Positions 2 to 17,577 of a stretch of DNA of 28,189 nt are shown here, piece after piece. The DNA comes from a virus. Location: the IMG/VR virus record IMGVR_UViG_3300031974_004185, positions 1-28,189 of that record. One strand, 5' to 3'. Each line of letters starts with the position of its first letter. Positions within the stretch are counted from its first letter, which is position 1. The position numbers were made by a program, and so were the translations under genes. The notes under the pieces are model-generated. The model saw only the letters and a program-made list of their open reading frames with translations. It did no database searches and was not told where the DNA came from.

Positions 2-490
2 TCTTCAATTTATGTAGTTGGACATTATGAGACAGATTGTGGTGGTTGTGATACTATTAATTCTTATCGTGAGATTTTTGACTTGGTGTTGAAGGCACAT
101 AATTCTGGCTACAATGTTTTGTTTGAAGGTTTATTAATTTCTGGTGATGCAAAAAGAACTTTCGAATTATTTGAACTTGGTCTACCCTTGAAAGTAATTG
201 GCATAGATATTCCATTGGAAGTTTGTGTTGATTCTATTAATCAACGTAGGAGAAATAGTTATGAAAAGCGTTTGGAAGCGAAAAAGGAAGAGAATAAAAA
301 GAGGGAAGAAAAAGGGCAAAAGCTCTTAAAATTACCTGAATGGCGTGGTGAAGTGAATCCTACTAACACCACCGCTAAATATAATCAAATTAAGAAAACT
401 ATGAATTGGTTAGCAGAAAGAGGTGTTGATACTTCTTGGCATAACCGTGAGGAAGCATTCAACGTTATTAAAAAGGAATTAGGGCTATGA
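2..490 (+). CDS. 5-hydroxymethyluracil DNA kinase (P-loop), 5' end missing
   Basis: The frame is open to the left edge, so the start codon and Walker A loop lie outside the window. The visible part begins YVVGHYETDCGGCDTI, followed by VLFEGLL and VIGIDIPLEVCVDSINQRRR, then NPTNTTAKY. I recognise this order from phage P-loop kinases annotated as 5-hmdU DNA kinases, which phosphorylate 5-hydroxymethyl-dU in DNA during thymine hypermodification. An approximately 30-residue, strongly charged Lys/Glu segment sits between the RRR and NPTNTT motifs; relatives I recall are more compact here. The stop overlaps the next ATG as ATGA, indicating translational coupling. The context (helical/aGPT-Pplase partner, thymidylate-synthase homologue) supports the call. 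A generic nucleotide kinase is the main alternative. Confidence 0.72.
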   Translation, partial: SSIYVVGHYETDCGGCDTINSYREIFDLVLKAHNSGYNVLFEGLLISGDAKRTFELFELGLPLKVIGIDIPLEVCVDSINQRRRNSYEKRLEAKKEENKKREEKGQKLLKLPEWRGEVNPTNTTAKYNQIKKTMNWLAERGVDTSWHNREEAFNVIKKELGL

Positions 491-1344
491 GTATCGAAGG
501 ATTTTTTAATTATGCAAGAGAACGCTACAACATCTTTTTAAAAAAAGATGTTGTAGGATCACCTGCTCCATGGACTGAAGATAAAATACTTCAACAATAT
601 CGTTTTTGTAATATTTTCCGTGAGGATGACATTGTTACAAAATGGATTCGTAAAAACGTTCGTGAACCTTATGCTGACCACCCCAAGCTATTGGGCATGA
701 TTGTTCTTGCTCGTTGGTTTAATAAAATTGAAACGCTTGAAGTTATAAAAGAAAACAATTTGTTTGAGAATTGGAACACTGAGGATGCTCAGAAAGCACT
801 TGGTGGTCTTTCTCCTATAGTTAGCGGAGCATATATAATCAAGACTCCAGATGGAATGAATAAACTAACAGGAATTTGTTGGTGCTTAGAGCAAATTTTA
901 CCTGATGCAGTACATCTTCAAGCCCATATCGAGGTTGGTGAAACAGGGTTGGCTGACGTACATAGAGTGTTGATGGATTATCCATTCCTTGGTGCGTTTA
1001 TGTCGTATGAAATAGTAACAGACCTGAGACACACATTTATGTTGAACCAAGCACCTGATATTATGACTTGGGCTAATCCTGGACCAGGAGCAGCACGAGG
1101 TCTCTCAAGGCTTTTAGGCTATGAGGCGAATCATTTTAATCGTAGTAGTAAGAAAGATTATGCAACTATGATGGTTGAAATGCAGAAGTTATTGGAATTA
1201 TCCAAGCAAGATAAATATTGGAGCAATGAATATCCTGCTTGGGAAATGAGAGAAGTCGAACACACGTTGTGTGAGTTCGATAAATATGAAAGGGCAAGAC
1301 TTGGTGAGGGTCGTCCTAAACAAAAATATAGAAAAGGAGTTTAA
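487..1344 (+). CDS. 5-hmdU DNA kinase helical / aGPT-Pplase-like DNA base hypermodification protein
   Basis: 285 residues. Near the N-terminus it has a family-like block: FFNYARERYNIFLKK, PWTEDKILQQYRFCNIFRE, then KWIRKNV. Near residues 196-206 lies NPGPGAARGL, and the C-terminus has WEMREVEHTLCEFDKYERAR followed by LGEGRPK. I associate these motifs with the family known as 5-hmdU DNA kinase helical domain or alpha-glutamyl/putrescinyl thymine pyrophosphorylase (aGPT-Pplase), some members of which transfer amino acids onto phosphorylated hmdU in DNA. Which of the two activities applies cannot be decided by eye. The GPG turn fits the proposed relationship to helix-hairpin-helix DNA glycosylases. 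It overlaps the kinase gene by four bases. A 15-bp perfect inverted repeat lies in codons 13-24. Confidence 0.72.
   Translation: MSIEGFFNYARERYNIFLKKDVVGSPAPWTEDKILQQYRFCNIFREDDIVTKWIRKNVREPYADHPKLLGMIVLARWFNKIETLEVIKENNLFENWNTEDAQKALGGLSPIVSGAYIIKTPDGMNKLTGICWCLEQILPDAVHLQAHIEVGETGLADVHRVLMDYPFLGAFMSYEIVTDLRHTFMLNQAPDIMTWANPGPGAARGLSRLLGYEANHFNRSSKKDYATMMVEMQKLLELSKQDKYWSNEYPAWEMREVEHTLCEFDKYERARLGEGRPKQKYRKGV
525..556. repeat. 15-bp perfect inverted repeat inside coding sequence
   Basis: The arms are CTACAACATCTTTTT (525-539) and AAAAAGATGTTGTAG (542-556), separated by AA. It lies 38 bases after the start codon of the hypermodification gene, so the transcript could form a hairpin just inside the ribosome-binding window. 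The sequence is directly readable; a function is inference. Confidence 0.9.
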
Positions 1345-1347
1345 ATC

Positions 1348-1953
1348 ATGACATCTGTAAGACTAACAAAAACAATACGAGAAACAATCTATACTCGTGT
1401 CATTAAATATAAATTTCAGGAACAAGTTACTGAACTTTTAAAGAAACATCAGAAATTAGCTGAAATGATCTATCAAGATATGTTCACCAAGGATGAGCAT
1501 AAACTTTTAAAAAGTTTGCCACAAAATTGGTTGGCACCAAGACAGTCGATCAGTTATAATTTGGCAGGACAATCTAGATATATTTGTTTCAATGGAATCA
1601 TAGGTCATTATAGGGAATATTACAACCAAATTGATTTTGAAAAACCAGAACAAATTGAATTTAATTTCCCTTGCCAATATGAAACTCCTGTTATCGAGTC
1701 TGGGACAGAAATCTATAACCTTGTTAATAAATTAGATAATGAAGCTGATTCTCTGAATGAAGAGATAAAGAAAGCAAAACAAAACTTATGGGCTGCTTTA
1801 GAATCAGTGACTACTCTTAATAAATTAATTACAGAGTGGGAAGAAATTCGTCCATTCTGTAAGGATTTTATGGTCACAAAAGCTAATCTTCCCGCTGTGA
1901 AAGTTAGTGAATTAAATAAAATGTTGAATTTACCAAAAGAGGAGAATTCATAG
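1348..1953 (+). CDS. Nmad5-like putative nucleotide-modification-associated protein
   Basis: 201 residues, start ATG preceded by AAGGAG with good spacing. The N-terminus (RLTKTIRETIYTRVI, then FQEQVTELLKKHQKLAEMIY) and the C-terminal ending LPAVKVSELNKMLNLP resemble phage proteins I know as Nmad5 (nucleotide modification associated domain 5), a family named by genome context and without proven chemistry. Residues about 125-165 look like a coiled coil. There is no transmembrane segment or obvious catalytic motif. Its place between the aGPT-Pplase-like gene and the thymidylate-synthase homologue is the strongest support for a link to DNA modification. If the family call is wrong it is simply a conserved phage hypothetical protein. 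Confidence 0.5.
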   Translation: MTSVRLTKTIRETIYTRVIKYKFQEQVTELLKKHQKLAEMIYQDMFTKDEHKLLKSLPQNWLAPRQSISYNLAGQSRYICFNGIIGHYREYYNQIDFEKPEQIEFNFPCQYETPVIESGTEIYNLVNKLDNEADSLNEEIKKAKQNLWAALESVTTLNKLITEWEEIRPFCKDFMVTKANLPAVKVSELNKMLNLPKEENS

Positions 1954-2180
1954 TGAAGAAACTATTATTAATATTTTGTTTATTACCATCTATATGTTTA
2001 GCAGATGCAGAACATAGAGAAAAAATTATTTTTGAAAATAAGCGTGCGATGACCATAAGCAAAAGAGAAATAAATGTATTTGAATATCAATCAAAATTAG
2101 ATAATAGAATAATTTGCTTTATCGCAGTAACTGAAGGTTATCAAGAAAATTTACATTGTGTTAATAGGAGAGAAAAGTAA
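1953..2180 (+). CDS. Small secreted (periplasmic) protein of unknown function
   Basis: 75 residues, GTG start overlapping the previous TAG stop by one base, preceded by GAGGAG. The N-terminus MKKLLLIFCLLPSICLADA is a clear Sec signal peptide: two lysines, a hydrophobic core and a likely signal peptidase I site after CLA. The mature product would be about 56 residues, charged, with two cysteines (RIICFIA and LHC) that could form a disulphide in the periplasm. I see no recognisable domain. The stop overlaps the ATG of the thymidylate-synthase homologue. An exported protein inside a nucleotide-modification operon is odd; superinfection exclusion or envelope modification are guesses only. Confidence 0.65.
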   Translation: MKKLLLIFCLLPSICLADAEHREKIIFENKRAMTISKREINVFEYQSKLDNRIICFIAVTEGYQENLHCVNRREK

Positions 2181-3178
2181 TGTTAGTTTTTGATGTTCGT
2201 AACGTTCATGAAGCTTTACCTAAAGTAGTGCAAGCGTTGCTGTTAAAAAAGAATGCAGTTAAGAGAAACTCTCGTAATGGAGAAGTGTTGGTATTTAAAG
2301 AACCAGTAACAACGGTCTATCGTAAACCAACAGAAAGAGTATTATTTTATCCTGATAGAGATGCTAATCCGTTCTTCCATTTTATGGAAAGTCTTTGGAT
2401 GCTGGCTGGTCGTAAAGATGTTGAAATGCCCGCAACCTATGTTAAAAACATTAAGAACTTTAGTGATGATGGAATTTTCTTCAATGCTGCCTATGGGCAT
2501 CGTCTTATTAAGCAATACAGTAAGAATCAGTTAAAAGAAATTATAGATATTTTAAAAAATGATCCTGATTCAAGACAGGCTGTTGCTCAAATTTGGTCGC
2601 ATGAAGACTTGCTAAAAAATACTAAAGATAAACCATGTAATCTAATGGCAGTTTTTAGCATTAATTGTGAGAATAAGGTTGATATGATTGTCTATAATCG
2701 TAGCAATGATATCGTTTGGGGAGCATACGGAGCTAATGCTGTTCATTTTAGCTATTTTCACGAATATGTTGCAGCAGGTATTGGGAAAGAAGTTGGTGTA
2801 TATAGACAAGTTAGTAATAATTTGCATGCATACCTAGATACTTTAGAAAAAGTTAAGAATATTGGTGAATATGAAGCTATAAATAATCCTTATTCTTATC
2901 CTAATGACTTAAAACCTTTTCCACTTGTTAATTCTCAACTAGAACATTGGGAACTAGATTTAAAATTATTTATGGATGATGCTCCTTGCAGTACTATGAA
3001 TGATCGTTTCTTTACCAGAGTTGCTTATCCTATAAAAGCAGCTCACAAAGCTTATAAAAACAAAAAGAATCCTAAAAGATTTTCTTATGCCATTGAAATT
3101 ATGGAACAGTGTTTAGCTGAAGATTGGAGAAAAGCTTGTATTGAATGGTTACAACGTCGGGAACAAGGAGCAAAATAA
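2180..3178 (+). CDS. Thymidylate synthase homologue, probable dUMP hydroxymethylase
   Basis: 332 residues, start ATG overlapping the upstream TAA, with AGGAG before it. Thymidylate-synthase-fold landmarks are present: a folate/dUMP-binding DSRQAVAQIW, the catalytic cysteine in KPCNLMAVFSI (Cys153), then YNRSNDIVWGAYGANAVHFS and NNLHAYL. Asn186 aligns with the asparagine that gives classical synthases dUMP rather than dCMP specificity. The divergent body and position beside hmdU-processing genes favour a 5-hydroxymethyl-dUMP synthase, as in phages that replace thymine with hydroxymethyluracil. Ordinary dTMP synthesis cannot be excluded by sequence alone. It is coupled to the downstream HD gene through a TAATG overlap. 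Confidence 0.8.
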   Translation: MLVFDVRNVHEALPKVVQALLLKKNAVKRNSRNGEVLVFKEPVTTVYRKPTERVLFYPDRDANPFFHFMESLWMLAGRKDVEMPATYVKNIKNFSDDGIFFNAAYGHRLIKQYSKNQLKEIIDILKNDPDSRQAVAQIWSHEDLLKNTKDKPCNLMAVFSINCENKVDMIVYNRSNDIVWGAYGANAVHFSYFHEYVAAGIGKEVGVYRQVSNNLHAYLDTLEKVKNIGEYEAINNPYSYPNDLKPFPLVNSQLEHWELDLKLFMDDAPCSTMNDRFFTRVAYPIKAAHKAYKNKKNPKRFSYAIEIMEQCLAEDWRKACIEWLQRREQGAK

Positions 3179-3741
3179 TGGAACAAGCTAATAAGTTCAC
3201 TAAAATTATACAAACGAGAGCTGGTGGAAGAGTAGAAAGATGTCACTCTTTTACTAAAATTGGCAGTTATAATGTAGCAGAACATTCTTGGAATGTTGCT
3301 ATGCTGGGTTATTATCTATATTCAAAAGATTTTGAAAGGTTGTGCATACATTATTTAGTGCATGATGTTCATGAAGCTTGGGTCGGTGACATACCAAGTC
3401 CAGTAAGGAAGTATGCTTTGGACGGGTCTGTTTTAGAAAAAATTGAAAAAGCTATAAATTTAGAACTGAACTATCCTTCAGCATGTGATTTATCTGATGA
3501 AGATAAAATTAAAATTAGAAGCTGTGACCAACTAGAATTCTACTTTTGGGCTAGAGAACAAGAATTATTGGGTAATAAATTCATTAGAGAATCATTAATA
3601 GAAATTGAAAGATATTTTGATGAAAATCCTCTTGAATATAAAGCAAATAAATTATATCTTTTTGCTAAGGATATGGAAGATGGATTTTTACCAAGACAAC
3701 AAGGTGTGATAAAAGAAATTATGGAGAAAATCAATGGTTAA
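3178..3741 (+). CDS. HD-domain 5'-deoxynucleotidase (YfbR-like)
   Basis: 187 residues from the ATG at 3178, which overlaps the TAA of the synthase gene and follows AAGGAG; an in-frame upstream start at 3145 has no such site. HD metal ligands are visible: Arg18 and His36 (RVERCHSF, AEHSWNVA), His62-Asp63 in LVHDVHEAWVGDIPSP, and a later Asp in RSCDQLEF. This arrangement matches YfbR-type phosphohydrolases that convert dNMPs to nucleosides. In this setting it may hydrolyse dTMP or dCMP from the host pool so that hmdU or dUMP wins (inference). The C-terminal 60 residues are helical. Confidence 0.82.
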   Translation: MEQANKFTKIIQTRAGGRVERCHSFTKIGSYNVAEHSWNVAMLGYYLYSKDFERLCIHYLVHDVHEAWVGDIPSPVRKYALDGSVLEKIEKAINLELNYPSACDLSDEDKIKIRSCDQLEFYFWAREQELLGNKFIRESLIEIERYFDENPLEYKANKLYLFAKDMEDGFLPRQQGVIKEIMEKING

Positions 3742-4168
3742 ACAAGTAGCAGGAACACACTATAAAAGTAGTTTTCAACATTGGGACTTTGTAGAAATGT
3801 TTGAAATTGGTTATCTAGAAGCTAATGCAACTAAATATGTGTTGCGTTGGAAGAAAAAGAATGGTGTGGAAGATTTAAAGAAAGCAAAAAGCTATGTTGA
3901 AAAATTAATACTAGAGATGCATTTTAATGACAGGAGATCAAAATCCACTATTGGTGATGACTTCTTCATAAATGAATTTTGTATTAGCAATAAATTAGGT
4001 GAAAAAGAACGTAATATTTGCCATGTTTTATTAGCTCAATGGGAAGTTGTGGAAGAATTAGAAGCAGTGATTGGCTGGATAGATCAATTAATCGAGGAGG
4101 CTTCTCAACCAAGAATAGATTCAACAGGACAAGATAGTCCATTTGGATATGATGGGGAGGAAGGTTGA
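3734..4168 (+). CDS. DUF3310 (SaV-like) phage protein
   Basis: 144 residues, starting inside the end of the HD gene with GGAG eight bases upstream. The N-terminal 50 residues hold the DUF3310 signature: HYKSSFQHWDFVEMF, GYLEANATKYVLRW, then GVEDLKKAKSYVEKL. The family is widespread in phages near nucleotide-metabolism genes and is sometimes called a nucleotide kinase without good proof. The C-terminal half (about residues 65-144) is acidic, helical and unrecognised, ending in a disordered DSTGQDSPFGYDGEEG tail. The stop overlaps the polymerase start (TGATG). Confidence 0.8.
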   Translation: MVKQVAGTHYKSSFQHWDFVEMFEIGYLEANATKYVLRWKKKNGVEDLKKAKSYVEKLILEMHFNDRRSKSTIGDDFFINEFCISNKLGEKERNICHVLLAQWEVVEELEAVIGWIDQLIEEASQPRIDSTGQDSPFGYDGEEG

Positions 4169-6117
4169 TGCAACTACCATTATTTGAACCAAAGAGTGAA
4201 TGGAAGCCTCCTCAACTGAGTGAGCTTCCATCTTGGAAAGGTAAAAAGAGAATTTGTATTGATGTTGAAACACGTGATGAGCAGCTTCGTAAGCTTGGTC
4301 CAGGAGTTCGTCGTGGTGGATATATTGTTGGAATTAGTTTCACTATAGAAGATGAAGGCTCTTATTATTTACCATATAGGCATGCGGGAGGAGATAATCT
4401 TCCTGTCGATGCAGTGCTTTCCTATATGAAGGAAAATGCTAAAGTATTCACTGGAGATTTGGTGGGTGCAAACCTTAGTTATGATCTAGACTATTTGTGG
4501 GAAGAAGGGATTTTCTTCCCCAATGTAAGATTTTATAGAGATATTCAGATTGCTGACCCTTTAATTTATGAATTACATAATAGTTATAGTTTGGATAACA
4601 TTGCCAAACGCCTTGGTCTGGCAGGTAAAGACGAAACACAATTGCGTATAGCTGCAAAAGATTATGGTGTTGACCCTAAAGGTGGTATGTGGAAACTTCC
4701 TGCTCGTCACGTAGGAGCATATGCAGAAGCAGATACACAACAACCATTATTAGTATTAAGACGTCAGGAAAGATTAATCGACGAACAAGATTTATGGGAT
4801 ATTTATGACTTAGAAAGCAAAGTTCTCCCTGTTTTAGTAAAAATGCGTCGTCGAGGTGTATTAATAGACCAAGATAAACTTAGTAGAGTAGAAGAATGGT
4901 CTACAACTCAGGAGAAAGAGGCTCTCTCGGAAGTTAAAAGGCTTTCAGGTGTAGCTATTAACCTTGGAGATGTTTGGAAAGCGGAGGCTATTGCTCCAGC
5001 TCTGGAGAACATAGGTATAAAGGTTGGTAAAACTGCCAAAACAAATAAACCTTCAGTTGATAAAGACTTTCTCACATCTGTAGACCACCCTGTTGCTAAA
5101 TCCTTACTTTGGGCACGTAAAACAAATAAGCTCAGAACAACTTTTGCTGCGTCAGTTCGTAGATATATGACTAATGGTCGTATCCATTGCGAATTTAACC
5201 AAATAGCAAGAGAAAATGAAGATGGAGAGCAAAAGGGTGCGAGATTCGGCAGGTTAAGTTGCACTAATCCAAATTTACAACAGCAACCAAGTCGTGACGA
5301 ATTTGCACAAATGTGGAGAGATATTTATATCCCAGAGCAGGATGCAATTTGGTGTGCAAATGACTATAGTCAGCAAGAACCTCGTTGGACAACTCATTTT
5401 GCAGCCGTGATGGGTCTTCCAGGAGCAAAAGCTGCTGCACAAGCTTATCATGATGATCCATTACTTGATAATCACCAATTTATGTCAGATTTAACAGGTC
5501 TTCCACGTAAAGCAGCCAAGAACATTTACTTGGGCTTGTGTTATGGTGAAGGTGGTGCAAAATTATGCCGAGAATTAGGTCTTCCAACTCGTTGGGCTTC
5601 CGTGTTTGGTAGAGGTCGTGACCGTAAAACTAAATATTATGCAACTCGTGAAGAAGCATTAGAAGCTAAAAAGCAGGTGGAAAACGGCTATATTTATGAA
5701 GCAGCAGGAGAAGAAGGTCAAAATATTTTAAATACTTTTGATAATCGTGCACCATTTATCCGACAATTGGCTAAAAAAGCCCAGCAGAAGGCAGCAGCCA
5801 AGGGTCAAATTCGTACTGGTGGTGGTCGTGTAATTCACTTCCCAGAAAAGAAAGACGGCAGTTATGATTGGTGTCATAAGGCTTTGAACCGCTTAATTCA
5901 GGGAACTTCAGCAGACCAGACCAAGAAAGCATTAGTTGCTTTGGATGAAGCTGGTTATTTTATGCAATTACAAGTACATGATGAAATAGATGGTAGTGTG
6001 GCAACTGAAGCAGAAGCTCACGCTCAAGCTAAAATTATGAGAGAGATTATGCCTTCAGAGGTTCCATTTAGGGTGGACACTGAATTAGGTAAAAGTTGGG
6101 GAGATTCAATGGGTTAG
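4168..6117 (+). CDS. polA: Family A DNA polymerase with 3'-5' exonuclease domain
   Basis: 649 residues from ATG 4168 (a TTG lies one codon upstream); GGGGAGGAAGG precedes it. The proofreading domain has Asp32 and Glu34 (CIDVET), an ExoII block GANLSYDLDYL and an ExoIII block YAEADTQQPL, so all acidic ligands appear present. Polymerase motif A is NDYSQQEPRW, motif B RKAAKNIYLGLCYG (Arg447, Lys451, Tyr459), motif C VHDEID. There is no 5'-nuclease domain, as in T7-like replicative polymerases. The residue matching E. coli Pol I Phe762 is leucine (Leu455). It is followed by a hairpin and promoter, so it ends an operon. Confidence 0.95.
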   Translation: MQLPLFEPKSEWKPPQLSELPSWKGKKRICIDVETRDEQLRKLGPGVRRGGYIVGISFTIEDEGSYYLPYRHAGGDNLPVDAVLSYMKENAKVFTGDLVGANLSYDLDYLWEEGIFFPNVRFYRDIQIADPLIYELHNSYSLDNIAKRLGLAGKDETQLRIAAKDYGVDPKGGMWKLPARHVGAYAEADTQQPLLVLRRQERLIDEQDLWDIYDLESKVLPVLVKMRRRGVLIDQDKLSRVEEWSTTQEKEALSEVKRLSGVAINLGDVWKAEAIAPALENIGIKVGKTAKTNKPSVDKDFLTSVDHPVAKSLLWARKTNKLRTTFAASVRRYMTNGRIHCEFNQIARENEDGEQKGARFGRLSCTNPNLQQQPSRDEFAQMWRDIYIPEQDAIWCANDYSQQEPRWTTHFAAVMGLPGAKAAAQAYHDDPLLDNHQFMSDLTGLPRKAAKNIYLGLCYGEGGAKLCRELGLPTRWASVFGRGRDRKTKYYATREEALEAKKQVENGYIYEAAGEEGQNILNTFDNRAPFIRQLAKKAQQKAAAKGQIRTGGGRVIHFPEKKDGSYDWCHKALNRLIQGTSADQTKKALVALDEAGYFMQLQVHDEIDGSVATEAEAHAQAKIMREIMPSEVPFRVDTELGKSWGDSMG

Positions 6118-6201: not shown

Positions 6202-6693
6202 ATGAACAAAGCTGAAAAATTAGATAGAATTGCTGCTTTTAATGTATTGTTTCCTGTTGGAACTAAAGTGTATTTAAAAGAAGATGGGAAAGAAAGATTG
6301 ACCCGCACTGAAATTGCTGGTGCTGCTTTCTTAAATAAATCAGAAGAAATGGTTGCTTGGTTTCAAGGAATTAGTGGTTCTTATAAGATTAGTTGCTGCA
6401 AAGGAGAAATTGATCAAGGTATTGAACGAGAACTTTTAATAGAGAAAATGGCTAACAAACAAGTGGTTGCTAGTTTGAAATATGAAATCCACCAAACTCA
6501 TTTATGTCATGCCAGAACTCGTAGAAATTTAGCTGATATAGAAATTAAGATTGCTGAAATAAGAAACAGAGCTGCAGAAGCTAGAAGCCAAGCTCAACCT
6601 TTGGAGGCTATTTGTGATTCTAATTTAGAAATAAGAGACAAAATTCTAGAAGGGATTAATTTTGTCATGACAGGAAAAAGAGATGTTTCATAA
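6202..6693 (+). CDS. Phage protein of unknown function
   Basis: 163 residues, ATG preceded by AAAAGGAG. I do not recognise it. The N-terminal part (about residues 12-70) looks beta-rich, with FPVGTKVYLKEDG and EIAGAAFLNKSEEMVAWF, reminiscent of small barrel domains in phage hypotheticals. Residues about 85-140 (HARTRRNLADIEIKIAEIRN onward) form a probable coiled coil. It is the first gene after promoter copy 1 and overlaps the dCMP deaminase gene by 11 bases, so it is co-transcribed with it. Confidence 0.7.
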   Translation: MNKAEKLDRIAAFNVLFPVGTKVYLKEDGKERLTRTEIAGAAFLNKSEEMVAWFQGISGSYKISCCKGEIDQGIERELLIEKMANKQVVASLKYEIHQTHLCHARTRRNLADIEIKIAEIRNRAAEARSQAQPLEAICDSNLEIRDKILEGINFVMTGKRDVS

Positions 6694-7117
6694 AACACAC
6701 AAAGACTTCTTAACTCTCGCCAAGTTTTGGGCTGAATTAAAAAGCAAAGACCCTAGCACTAAAGTTGCTGCTGTTATTGCTGATGATAAAAAGCGTATTG
6801 TTGGGATGGGATATAATGGATTCCCCAGAGGAGTTGAGGATAATCCAGAACGCTATCATGACAGGGAAATAAAGTATAAATATGTCGTGCATGCTGAAGT
6901 TAATGCAATATTAAATGCTGTGAAAAGTGTTGAAGGTTGCACACTCTATTGTTATCCTCTGCCAACTTGTAGTGAATGTGCTAAAGTAATTATTCAGTCT
7001 GGAATTAAAAGGGTTGTATTCCCTAAAGATTCCAATGTGGATAAAAATTGGACAGAATCTTTTAATTTTGCTTATCAAATGTACAGCGAAGCTGGTGTTG
7101 AGGTTTTGTATGTCTGA
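6683..7117 (+). CDS. Deoxycytidylate (dCMP) deaminase
   Basis: 144 residues. Zinc-dependent cytidine-deaminase-fold signature: His70-Ala-Glu72 (VVHAEVNAIL) and PLPTCSECAKVI with Cys96 and Cys99. The N-terminal STKVAAVIADDKK and GMGYNGFPRG are typical of dCMP deaminases. It converts dCMP to dUMP, the substrate of the thymidylate-synthase homologue at 2180, so it fits the proposed hmdU supply route. AGGA lies seven bases before the ATG. I did not see the HxxxxC zinc insert found in some allosteric dCMP deaminases, so dCTP/dTTP regulation is uncertain. Confidence 0.92.
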   Translation: MFHKTHKDFLTLAKFWAELKSKDPSTKVAAVIADDKKRIVGMGYNGFPRGVEDNPERYHDREIKYKYVVHAEVNAILNAVKSVEGCTLYCYPLPTCSECAKVIIQSGIKRVVFPKDSNVDKNWTESFNFAYQMYSEAGVEVLYV

Positions 7118-11480: not shown

Positions 11481-11717
11481 ATGTGTTATAGTATTAAGAT
11501 TGATGTTCAAACTCCTTATGCTCTTCAATTGTTATTAGAAATTCATAAGTTAATAAAAAATGAAGAAGCAGAAGAAAAGATTGCAGAGTTAGTGGGAAAA
11601 CTGCATTATGATTTAGGTTTAAGGGAAGAAGTGGTGGAGATTGATACAAATTATTTAGAAGAACATAGAGTTGGTTTTATTATTGTTCATGAACAAACTG
11701 AAAGGGTGGTGCATTAA
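11481..11717 (+). CDS. Small phage protein of unknown function
   Basis: 78 residues from ATG 11481, chosen because GGAG lies about nine bases upstream; an in-frame ATG at 11466 lacks a ribosome site. Mixed alpha/beta, acidic, with a helical KNEEAEEKIAELVGKLHYDL segment. No recognisable domain. It sits two bases after the membrane-protein stop and one base before the MazG-like start, so it is surely in the same operon. Confidence 0.6.
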   Translation: MCYSIKIDVQTPYALQLLLEIHKLIKNEEAEEKIAELVGKLHYDLGLREEVVEIDTNYLEEHRVGFIIVHEQTERVVH

Positions 11718-11718
11718 G

Positions 11719-12543
11719 ATGACTTATCAAGTAAAAGAATTTAATATTGCATTTAAAATAAATATGCCTGATAGTCCAGAGCTACCAGAGCAAAACAAAG
11801 CACGTCCTGTTGACGACGATCTAAAATTAAAGGAGTGGGCTGAAAAACTGGAGGATATTGCAGAAGACATGCATAAGTCTGCAGAAACAGCTGATCATCC
11901 ACTAAGTTATATGCGGTTGCATTTACTAACTGAAGAATTATCTGAGTTAGTGCGTGGATTAGAAAATGATGACATTGTTGAAACTTTAGATGCATTGTGT
12001 GATTTACGCTATGTGTTGGATGGAACAATCCTCAGCTTTGGGCTTGATCATGACGATATTTTTGATAAAGCTTATAAAGAAGTTCATCGCTCCAACATGT
12101 CGAAATTAGATGAAAATGGTGAACCAATATTTAATCCTGCAGGTCGTGTTGTTAAAAGTTCAAAATACACACCTCCTGATCTCAAACAATTCTTTAATGA
12201 AGAAGATTTTAAAAGATGGGGAACTGGTTTGAATCAACGTTATGTGGGAGGAATTGAACATTTAGTTGGTCGACCAAGAGATTTAATTTATTTAGACTTA
12301 ACTGATTATGGAGCTGACACTCTTTTGAATAAATGGGGTGGTGGTAAACAGTGGGCTATTGAAAGAGTTCTTGATAATGTTGAATATGAAAACGAAATGC
12401 ATGAAAAAGATCCTAATAGACAAGTTTGGAACCCTCGCTGCAAAGAAGCTGTTTATCGTGTTTCTTATGTTAATGTTCCATATGGTTTTTGGAAAACATT
12501 AAAGAAAAAAGTAAAACTTGAAAAGGTATTTCCCAATGATTGA
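11719..12543 (+). CDS. MazG-like nucleoside triphosphate pyrophosphohydrolase with extra C-terminal domain
   Basis: 274 residues from ATG 11719. Residues 60-150 hold the all-alpha NTP pyrophosphatase core: EExxE at 72-76 (LLTEELSELV) and ExxD at 88-91 (VETLDALCDLRYVL), then the typical NMSKLDENGEPIFNPAGRV and KSSKYTPPDL ending. The remaining 125 residues (KQFFNEEDFKRWGTG onward) are not part of the usual fold and I do not recognise them. Such enzymes remove triphosphates such as dUTP or dTTP-like substrates; here it may shape the nucleotide pool around hmdU (inference). It overlaps the next gene by eight bases. Confidence 0.8.
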   Translation: MTYQVKEFNIAFKINMPDSPELPEQNKARPVDDDLKLKEWAEKLEDIAEDMHKSAETADHPLSYMRLHLLTEELSELVRGLENDDIVETLDALCDLRYVLDGTILSFGLDHDDIFDKAYKEVHRSNMSKLDENGEPIFNPAGRVVKSSKYTPPDLKQFFNEEDFKRWGTGLNQRYVGGIEHLVGRPRDLIYLDLTDYGADTLLNKWGGGKQWAIERVLDNVEYENEMHEKDPNRQVWNPRCKEAVYRVSYVNVPYGFWKTLKKKVKLEKVFPND

Positions 12544-12902: not shown

Positions 12903-13445
12903 ATGACTCGTATAAATTGTATTCCAGTTCAGGAATTATGTCGTCACCATCTTGTAGCTGAATATCGTGAATTGCCACGTGTGTTTAAGTTAGCTTATAA
13001 AGCTATTAACAAGGGAACAGCAATAGCCGTTCCCCCTACTTATACTTTGGGCACTGGTCACGTCAAGTTTTTCTATGCTCGTCTTGAATATTTATCTAAA
13101 CGGCATGAAGAATTAGTTGCTGAAATGAAGGCTCGTGGCTTTAAACCACAAATGGAAAATGTTGGAGCTGAATGGAAAACTAAGATTGAACAAATTTATT
13201 GGAACGACTGGAAGCCCAGTGAACAAGATATGTCTATTAATCGTGCACGCATAGAGGAACGCAAGCCCAAGTTGAAGTTTGTTCGTGAGGACAGGGGAAT
13301 GTGTCGTAGATACTATTCTTTTTCTCGTAAGTTGTATTGTGAATGTGAACTTAACAACGAACTTTATGTTTGTAGTAAAGATGGTGAACCTTCACATAAG
13401 GTTGCTGATTCTGTTGAAGAATTTAATAAGAGGTTAGCAAAATGA
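12903..13445 (+). CDS. denV: T4 endonuclease V-like pyrimidine dimer DNA glycosylase
   Basis: 180 residues, start MTRIN as in T4 endonuclease V. The catalytic Thr2 (N-terminal amine after Met removal), Arg3, the block AEYRELPRVF with Glu23, and TLGTGHVKFFYARLEYLSKR all match the T4 enzyme closely. The family cuts at UV-induced cyclobutane pyrimidine dimers. The protein is about 40 residues longer than the T4 enzyme (138 residues): the MCRRYYSFSRKLY region probably matches T4 WYKYYGKAIY, and a C-terminal extension (CELNNELYVCSKDGEPSHK onward) follows. First gene after promoter copy 3. Confidence 0.93.
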   Translation: MTRINCIPVQELCRHHLVAEYRELPRVFKLAYKAINKGTAIAVPPTYTLGTGHVKFFYARLEYLSKRHEELVAEMKARGFKPQMENVGAEWKTKIEQIYWNDWKPSEQDMSINRARIEERKPKLKFVREDRGMCRRYYSFSRKLYCECELNNELYVCSKDGEPSHKVADSVEEFNKRLAK

Positions 13446-16956: not shown

Positions 16957-17577
16957 ATGGGGCAAAAAGAGATGACTGAGACCAAAAAACCAAAAACCAG
17001 ATACAAACGCAAAGATCCAACCAAAAACGCATCAACGACTGGTGGTCCTGGAAAACGTGATGTTGACCAGACAAACTGGCGTGTTAAAATGCAAACTAGT
17101 CGAATTAAATTTGACGATAAATTAAAACAGAAATTTTTAGATGAATTTGCCTTTTGTGGTAGGATGGCTGAAGCAGCATATAACGCTGATGTGACTTATG
17201 CTTGTGCTAAATACCATCTTGATAATGACCCTGAGTTCATGCAGGCTTTTGAAGAAGCAAAGCAAAAATACAGGGATCGTGTTGCCACCAAGGCACAAAG
17301 ATTGATTTTTGATGGTTCCAAAGATCCAATTGTGGGTGGTAAGAACAAGGATGAAATCATTGGTCACAAAACTACTGAATACCCTAACTTGATTCTGGCT
17401 GAGTTGAAACGTGTTGACCCATCTTATACAGACCGTCAGCAACTCGACATCAATGGTGGAGCAAGCGGTGTTCTTGTAGCACCTGCTGATATGAGTCCTG
17501 AAGAGTGGATTGCTGAACAAAATGAGTTGAACAAAACGAGGGTGAAACCAGATAGCAGCAATGACCACGGAGCATAA
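16957..17577 (+). CDS. terS: Terminase small subunit
   Basis: 206 residues from ATG 16957; ATG 16972 is an alternative, favoured by a 16-codon upstream ORF (16925-16975) whose TGA overlaps it as ATGA. The N-terminus is basic and disordered. Residues about 45-90 form the DNA-binding helix-turn-helix region (KFLDEFAFCGRMAEAAYNA, then DNDPEFMQAFEEAKQKYRD), typical of small terminases. The C-terminal part (LAELKRVDPSYTDRQQLDI, GGASGVLVAP) also fits. It recognises the packaging site and recruits the large subunit. The candidate packaging region lies immediately upstream. Confidence 0.85.
   Translation: MGQKEMTETKKPKTRYKRKDPTKNASTTGGPGKRDVDQTNWRVKMQTSRIKFDDKLKQKFLDEFAFCGRMAEAAYNADVTYACAKYHLDNDPEFMQAFEEAKQKYRDRVATKAQRLIFDGSKDPIVGGKNKDEIIGHKTTEYPNLILAELKRVDPSYTDRQQLDINGGASGVLVAPADMSPEEWIAEQNELNKTRVKPDSSNDHGA

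Follow-up and report, generated by a model that had tools for sequence, protein, structure and literature searches.

The left end of the virus record IMGVR_UViG_3300031974_004185 (IMG/VR; hereafter the window, i.e., the whole linear record of 28,189 bases, G000) very probably encodes, judging from its sequence, the supply-and-activation half of a gene cluster for thymine hypermodification based on 5-hydroxymethyldeoxyuridine (5-hmdU, hereafter also hmdU). The production and activation of 5-hmdU in viral DNA is a known disguise of phage genomes, which blocks many restriction enzymes; the cluster type is already known, and the window adds one new phage to it. The genes are arranged in the order kinase (cut at base 1), HMUDK_hel, Nmad5, a 75-aa open reading frame (ORF), a dUMP hydroxymethylase of the thymidylate synthase (TS) superfamily, an HD nucleotidase, a DUF3310 protein, DNA polymerase A (PolA) and dCMP deaminase (Table 1). 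Synteny with phages of which the modified base (M6) or the enzymes (PaMx11) are known places the window in the 5-hmdU hypermodification pathway; this assignment is well supported, and it is a reasonable inference that thymine is partly or wholly replaced in the DNA of this phage. Genes, gene order, homology and the fold model of HMUDK_hel are directly seen, while all reactions and the genes left of base 1 are deduced from them. A preliminary description of the sequence had already listed the ORFs at 2-490, 487-1344, 2180-3178 and 6683-7117, which are all present, the last three with family matches far beyond chance. It was correct on the kinase, the helical partner, the hydroxymethylase-type TS homologue and the pathway, as well as in allowing for genes to the left; however, the route that it called "complete-looking" is incomplete, since the amino acid:DNA transferase (ADDT) and the tailoring genes are not in the record and the contig ends inside the kinase. 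Nmad5 and the HD nucleotidase, both part of the conserved block, had been overlooked, and the 1-4 base overlaps described throughout occur at most junctions, but a 3-base gap separates 1344 from 1348 and two genes stand between HMUDK_hel and the TS homologue.

Table 1. Features of the left end of the window.
Feature	Position	Strand	Basis
5-hmdU DNA kinase, C-terminal 162 aa	2..490	+	phrog_800 E=6e-9; HMUDK_HMUD1 below cut-off; 44-49% identity to clade kinases
HMUDK_hel (aGPT-Pplase1), predicted helix-hairpin-helix (HhH) DNA-glycosylase-fold protein	487..1344	+	PF18723 E=7.8e-47; 37-sequence alignment; model
Nmad5, nucleotide modification associated domain 5	1348..1953	+	PF18757 E=6.6e-24
75-aa ORF, signal-peptide-like N terminus	1953..2180	+	ORF list; no family match
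Putative dUMP hydroxymethylase, TS superfamily (Cys153, Asn186)	2180..3178	+	Pfam Thymidylat_synt; phrog_5131; homologue alignment; solved relatives
HD-domain nucleotidase, YfbR/DatZ-related	3178..3741	+	Family and profile matches
DUF3310 protein, conserved neighbour	3734..4168	+	Family match
Family A DNA polymerase	4165..6117	+	PF00476 E=5e-46
dCMP deaminase, dUMP supply	6683..7117	+	Family matches

Full-length homologues in the same position as the kinase fragment have about 185-210 aa (~190 aa for the whole kinase), and their GTSGSGK[ST] P-loop (Walker A) lies ~50 residues further upstream than the point at which the window begins, outside the contig. The fragment is 44-49% identical to the kinases found at the equivalent cluster position in phage Simon and in the environmental loci L096, L097 and L099; because these homologues sit at the same place in other clusters, 2-490 can be identified as a kinase. 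Thus, of the hmdU-kinase-type P-loop protein first described there, the kinase identity stands, while the P-loop itself is not in the contig and the score against Pfam HMUDK_HMUD1 (PF18748) is 16.8 bits, below the cut-off of 27. The kinases of Ab18 and PaMx11 are likewise under this cut-off, and the profile, which also misses L005, was too narrow to serve as a kinase detector and was replaced by an alignment (A4). A PDB search with the fragment returned designed repeat proteins only, which were taken as chance matches. In the records of PaMx11 (gp49), Ab18 (ORF12) and M6 (gp54) the phrog_800 kinase family is labelled "terminase small subunit"; the window has a separate small terminase of its own (16957-17577), and this name is therefore probably wrong.

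M6 DNA contains 5-(2-aminoethyl)deoxyuridine (5-NedU), on the way to which a 5hmdU DNA kinase that prefers TG/TC phosphorylates 5hmdU within the DNA (PMC6449724), and the M6-like cassette has been itemised gene by gene (PMC9476957). The order in M6 and YuA is ADDT-PLP-rSAM-kinase-HMUDK_hel-Nmad5-hydroxymethylase-HD-DUF3310-PolA-dCMP deaminase (PLP, pyridoxal phosphate enzyme; rSAM, radical SAM enzyme), which from the kinase through dCMP deaminase is the same as that of the window. Both phages are nonetheless distant, with a kinase alignable by BLAST over only 44 residues, 36-37% identity in HMUDK_hel and 48% in the TS homologue (M6 gp58); moreover, M6 has ADDT, the PLP enzyme and rSAM upstream, whereas the left side of the window is cut and flavin-type genes take that place in its closest relatives. 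Pseudanabaena phage Pam3 shares the core of the window, including Nmad5 and the HD nucleotidase, but its PLP and rSAM genes are upstream of ADDT, and identity is 30% for HMUDK_hel and 42% for the TS homologue. The Pseudomonas phages PaMx11 and Ab18 (Abidjanvirus) have the order ADDT-flavin enzyme-GNAT-kinase-HMUDK_hel-hydroxymethylase-HD, with a downstream part like that of the window and with kinase (38-39% identity) and HMUDK_hel (53-54%) in one clade with it; unlike the window they lack Nmad5, and the nearest relatives of the window lack GNAT. Closest overall, in a comparison that covers the region from the kinase rightwards only, are Simon (PQ683277), L104, L127 and L131, which belong to an ADDT-flavin-amidoligase-LMWP type (LMWP, low-molecular-weight (LMW) phosphatase-like protein) and several of which have Nmad5; PolA is 67% and the large terminase (TerL) 59% identical to Simon.

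Structures of PaMx11 enzymes are deposited as PDB 8z2m/8z2n and 8z2o, and gp46 (8z2n) is a solved glycinyltransferase acting on 5-phosphomethyldeoxyuridine (5-PmdU); what is said here on gp46 and gp47 chemistry is based on PDB titles and general knowledge. Among solved structures, the flavin family found in these clusters has a match in a flavin-dependent lyase.

The proposed pathway would start with dCMP deaminase, which would form dUMP, and with the TS-superfamily enzyme, which would convert it to hmdUMP by hydroxymethylation; kinases would then produce hmdUTP, to be used in DNA by the polymerase in place of some or all dTTP, with the HD nucleotidase perhaps depleting a competing nucleotide. 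In the DNA, HMUDK_hel would present hmdU from the duplex, the P-loop kinase would phosphorylate its hydroxymethyl group, and ADDT and the tailoring enzymes, the genes of which would lie immediately left of base 1, would swap the phosphate for an amino-acid-derived group.

The family of the kinase's helical partner, HMUDK_hel, is clear from the Pfam profile (160 bits vs a cut-off of 25), in agreement with the first reading of 487-1344 as a 5-hmdU kinase helical/aGPT-Pplase-like protein. A PDB sequence search with HMUDK_hel gave no match, and Foldseek alone was weak; the structural model (pLDDT 96), however, superposes on PaMx11 gp46 with Z 11.3 and on the 8-oxoguanine glycosylase MjOgg with Z 10.8, values that helical models can also reach by chance. 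Most of the lower-ranked matches are DNA glycosylases, and nearly all rows belong to one superfamily, so that HMUDK_hel is predicted to have the HhH DNA-glycosylase superfamily fold, like gp46. Nine polar residues are invariant in a 37-sequence alignment (Asn42, Arg45, Asp48, Arg76, Lys126, Asp179, Asp191, Glu263 and Lys266). The start of the gene holds a near-perfect 32-base palindrome (525-556, CTACAACATCTTTTTAAAAAAAGATGTTGTAG), in which the encoded residues still match the family consensus.

HMUDK_hel is not specific to the kinase. Among 142 non-duplicate loci with HMUDK_hel and a TS homologue, collected by anchoring on TS, kinase and HMUDK_hel in turn, so that proportions are not a census, the partner is a kinase in 66, a TET-associated glycosyltransferase (TAGT) in 45 and a GT-B-like glycosyltransferase in 25, i.e., glycosyltransferases (70) as often as the kinase; the remainder have an unnamed protein (3), a methyltransferase-like protein (2) or no recognised partner (1), and two partner types were never found together (0/142). 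In 22 non-kinase contigs, searched over the whole record, neither a kinase nor ADDT was found, and TAGT was present in 12 of them; the HMUDK_hel tree requires eight partner changes. These data can be read, with the model, as a base-flipping platform which would present duplex hmdU to whichever enzyme the phage carries. The alternative that best survives is that HMUDK_hel is itself an enzyme on hmdU-DNA (a transferase, glycosylase-like or a pyrophosphorylase) and not the base-presenting subunit of the kinase. It would be in keeping with the invariant polar residues, with the predicted fold shared with the catalytic transferase gp46 and with the 76 of 142 loci in which HMUDK_hel occurs without kinase; but a shared presenting subunit accounts for the same distribution, the name HMUDK_hel was given by the Pfam curators after the kinase and, to our knowledge, no enzymatic activity of HMUDK_hel has been described. 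We consider this alternative rather unlikely, and the role of a presenting platform is preferred.

Other observations concern the surroundings of HMUDK_hel. About 70 loci, besides L011, L038 and L061, combine HMUDK_hel and the dUMP hydroxymethylase with TAGT or a GT-B-like enzyme and without kinase, which suggests glycosylated hmdU in many environmental phages. In L003 (1341-2180) and L006 (9006-9995) the kinase position beside HMUDK_hel (44-47% identical to that of the window) and a TS homologue is occupied by a methyltransferase-like protein, and in L086 (2339-3337) and two relatives (cluster c37) a ~330-aa protein without Pfam family stands between HMUDK_hel and the TS homologue. The window also encodes a T4 endonuclease V-like pyrimidine-dimer glycosylase (Pyr_excise, 12903-13445), and a weak Pyr_excise-like protein adjoins HMUDK_hel in about 28 environmental loci.

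Two profiles found no ADDT (PF18724) in the 28 kb record; the first of them gave no match in control genomes, but matches ADDT in the relatives. Nor is there any PLP, rSAM, flavin, GNAT or amidoligase gene within the window, in accord with the preliminary description, which had seen no decarboxylase, acetyltransferase or radical SAM gene. In nearly all close relatives, however, ADDT and the tailoring genes lie just left of the kinase, exactly where the record ends, and their absence is probably due to the cut of the contig; nothing is stored left of base 1, where the preliminary description had suggested looking, and since any phage record covers at most 6% of the first 8 kb in a nearest-DNA search, no close isolate supplies the missing end. 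From 74 kinase loci gathered, the 52 with kinase, HMUDK_hel, TS and a left flank of 6 kb or more were used for a flank count, and ADDT was found in 40 of them. Near the kinase, the tailoring sets were ADDT+flavin+amidoligase+LMWP in 14 loci, ADDT+PLP+rSAM in 12, ADDT+flavin+GNAT in 10, ADDT+FADx in nine and ADDT+PLP+rSAM+amidoligase in two; other kinase loci had partial sets or none, many through contig ends. The kinase-only tree left the window without a resolved position and was set aside for a four-protein tree (kinase, HMUDK_hel, TS and PolA; 1443 columns), in which the window is sister to L104 (SH-aLRT 96). Its clade of 12 comprises six flavin+amidoligase members, four FADx members and one cut flavin contig, and every contig of the clade with enough left flank has ADDT together with a flavin or flavin-like enzyme.

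Some points weigh against the assignment of the window to this pathway: the kinase misses the Pfam cut-off; its P-loop, ADDT and the tailoring genes are outside the record; and in 12 of the 52 well-flanked loci no ADDT was recognised by the profile used, so that a relative lacking ADDT is possible. These 12 loci and the 28 kb without ADDT would agree with a phage that stops at hmdU or phosphorylated hmdU and encodes no transferase. The record is, however, a fragment that ends inside the kinase, where relatives have those genes, and the clade contigs with enough flank all have ADDT; such an outcome is, in our estimate, quite improbable. The "simple or new derivative" of the preliminary description can thus be sharpened towards the set of this clade, i.e., ADDT with a flavin or flavin-like enzyme and, in six members, an amidoligase. 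By judgement, not computation, ADDT is expected with good confidence left of base 1; flavin+amidoligase genes have there nearly an even chance, and FADx, as the alternative to them, is less likely. Tailoring labels change often on the tree, so cassettes swap freely and any guess on the left flank is soft.

FADx is a diverged Rossmann-type protein, and its presence in nine loci dissolved what had appeared as an "ADDT only" group. Pfam gives nothing for it, and a profile comparison with the flavin lyase aligned 36 N-terminal columns only (22.7% probability); homology throughout the two proteins is not claimed. The "hypothetical protein" or "oxidoreductase" that follows the kinase in Rhodococcus phage Tonitrus and in Gordonia phages (L186:3761-4642 and L187:3054-3926) is FADx; in these phages hmU probably comes from a TET-like enzyme.

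The protein at 2180-3178 matches phrog_5131, "thymidylate synthase", with E=4e-116. Cys153 and the dUMP-selecting Asn186 reported in the preliminary description were both confirmed and, together with Arg174 and Asp177, are invariant in 92 homologues. Among solved chains, CMP 5-hydroxymethylases come closest to it and rank before every thymidylate synthase, and it misses all NCBI thymidylate synthase equivalog cut-offs (TIGR03283, the best, 70.7 vs 174.6 bits; TIGR03284, 41.7 vs 108.4). The protein thus appears as a hydroxymethylase-type member of the TS superfamily acting on dUMP. That it is an ordinary thymidylate synthase which boosts dTTP, the kinase block being a relic or having another target, is very improbable: the Pfam Thymidylat_synt match and the ease with which the two enzymes are confused (PMC5977210) would allow it, but the missed cut-offs and the solved relatives oppose it, as does the pairing of the TS family with an hmdU-DNA-type partner or HMUDK_hel in 142 of 142 surveyed clusters.

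As regards nucleotide supply to a hydroxymethylase of this type, family matches confirm the dCMP deaminase noted earlier at 6683, and PolA (69% identical to L096/L097/L099) would incorporate hmdUTP. The HD nucleotidase starts at 3145 in the ORF list, but its ATG at 3178 shares one base with the stop codon of the TS gene; its profile matches the YfbR 5'-deoxynucleotidase and DatZ, the HD residues are kept, and it accompanies 48 of the 66 kinase-type clusters and 20 of the 25 GT-B-type ones. Its role may be to clear dTMP, or else a different competing nucleotide. In phage phiW-14 a dTTPase appears, which leaves hmdUTP but no dTTP in the pool, and the DNA passes through an intermediate with pyrophosphorylated hmU (PMC5977210). 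A MazG/PRA-PH-like nucleotide pyrophosphohydrolase at 11671-12543 is a further candidate for control of the pool.

Nmad5 occupies the equivalent position in M6, YuA, Pam3 and Simon. The idea that it marks the M6 route was rejected, as it occurs also in flavin-type clusters (Simon, L127, L131 and L104) and outside any such cluster (Pan1); given these contexts, Nmad5 does not identify the route. In a Dhillonvirus, a missense change in nmad5 leads to escape from the Tmn defence, whereas its deletion does not (PMC11846954). The 75-aa ORF is probably cargo outside the pathway.

The right half of the window contains terminase, portal, head morphogenesis, scaffold, major head protein and tail genes. 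After Simon, the best matches of TerL are Roseobacter phage RDJL3 and Pseudomonas phages such as PAE1, and the major head protein shares 71% identity with those of Alteromonas phage R7M and Pseudomonas phage PaMx25; by its genes, the phage is thus an uncultured siphophage related to Mesyanzhinovviridae.

L104, the sister of the window, encodes ADDT, a flavin lyase, a glutamine-synthetase-fold amidoligase and LMWP; in L104 (6350-7360), L094 (7429-8382), L131 (3787-4704) and other kinase-type loci the last two stand next to each other, flanked by the flavin lyase on one side and the 5-hmdU kinase on the other. Pfam Amidoligase_2 matches 14 of 15 amidoligase members at E up to 1 (best 3e-6), and the AlphaFold model (pLDDT 92) retrieves carboxylate-amine ligases (YbdK, Z 10.7), with glutamine synthetases and gamma-glutamylcysteine synthetases filling the list. 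The conserved motifs include GAEHE (close to the N terminus), HxH (98-100) and EFRHFPGT. Of the 26 flavin+kinase loci, 14 have the amidoligase and 10 have GNAT, and none has both (hypergeometric 1.2e-5, calculated as if the loci were independent, although they are not). A flavin or PLP/rSAM set accompanies the amidoligase in 16 of its 17 loci; the remaining one is a cut contig. Since the flavin and PLP/rSAM routes leave a primary amine on thymine, a downstream amide-forming enzyme is chemically sensible; the amidoligase could put an amide on aminomethyl-dU and is possibly a new amide-forming step in thymidine hypermodification. In the full-text literature, searched with partial coverage, neither an amidoligase in thymidine modification nor a thymidine conjugated through such an amide was found, and the L104-type set was not described. 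The CHGxxxRS loop of the neighbouring LMWP is conserved in every copy except a cut one, and published data (PMC11955845) support a tailoring role. The product of 7-cyano-7-deazaguanine reductase also carries an aminomethyl group. A distant homologue of the amidoligase (27%) is found in the jumbo Vibrio phage 2.275.O (L185, 5890-7002) beside such a QueF-like reductase and queuosine-type genes, hinting at an amide-linked deazaguanine.

It may tentatively be proposed, at somewhat short of an even chance, that the window phage shares with L104 and Simon a third tailoring route, composed of ADDT, flavin lyase and amidoligase, whose genes would lie left of base 1 of the window, with HMUDK_hel as a general hmdU platform that phages pair with either kinase or glycosyltransferase. 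ADDT would add an amino acid to phosphorylated hmdU, the flavin lyase would trim it to 5-aminomethyl-dU, and the amidoligase would join a carboxylic or amino acid to the amine in DNA, replacing the acetyl cap expected from GNAT in the PaMx11-type clusters; for the window phage itself the amidoligase is a guess. The survey groups about 140 related clusters according to the enzyme decorating hmdU, and its points of wider interest are the amidoligase branch, for which the DNA of Simon or a relative could show the product directly, and the partner-swapping of HMUDK_hel.

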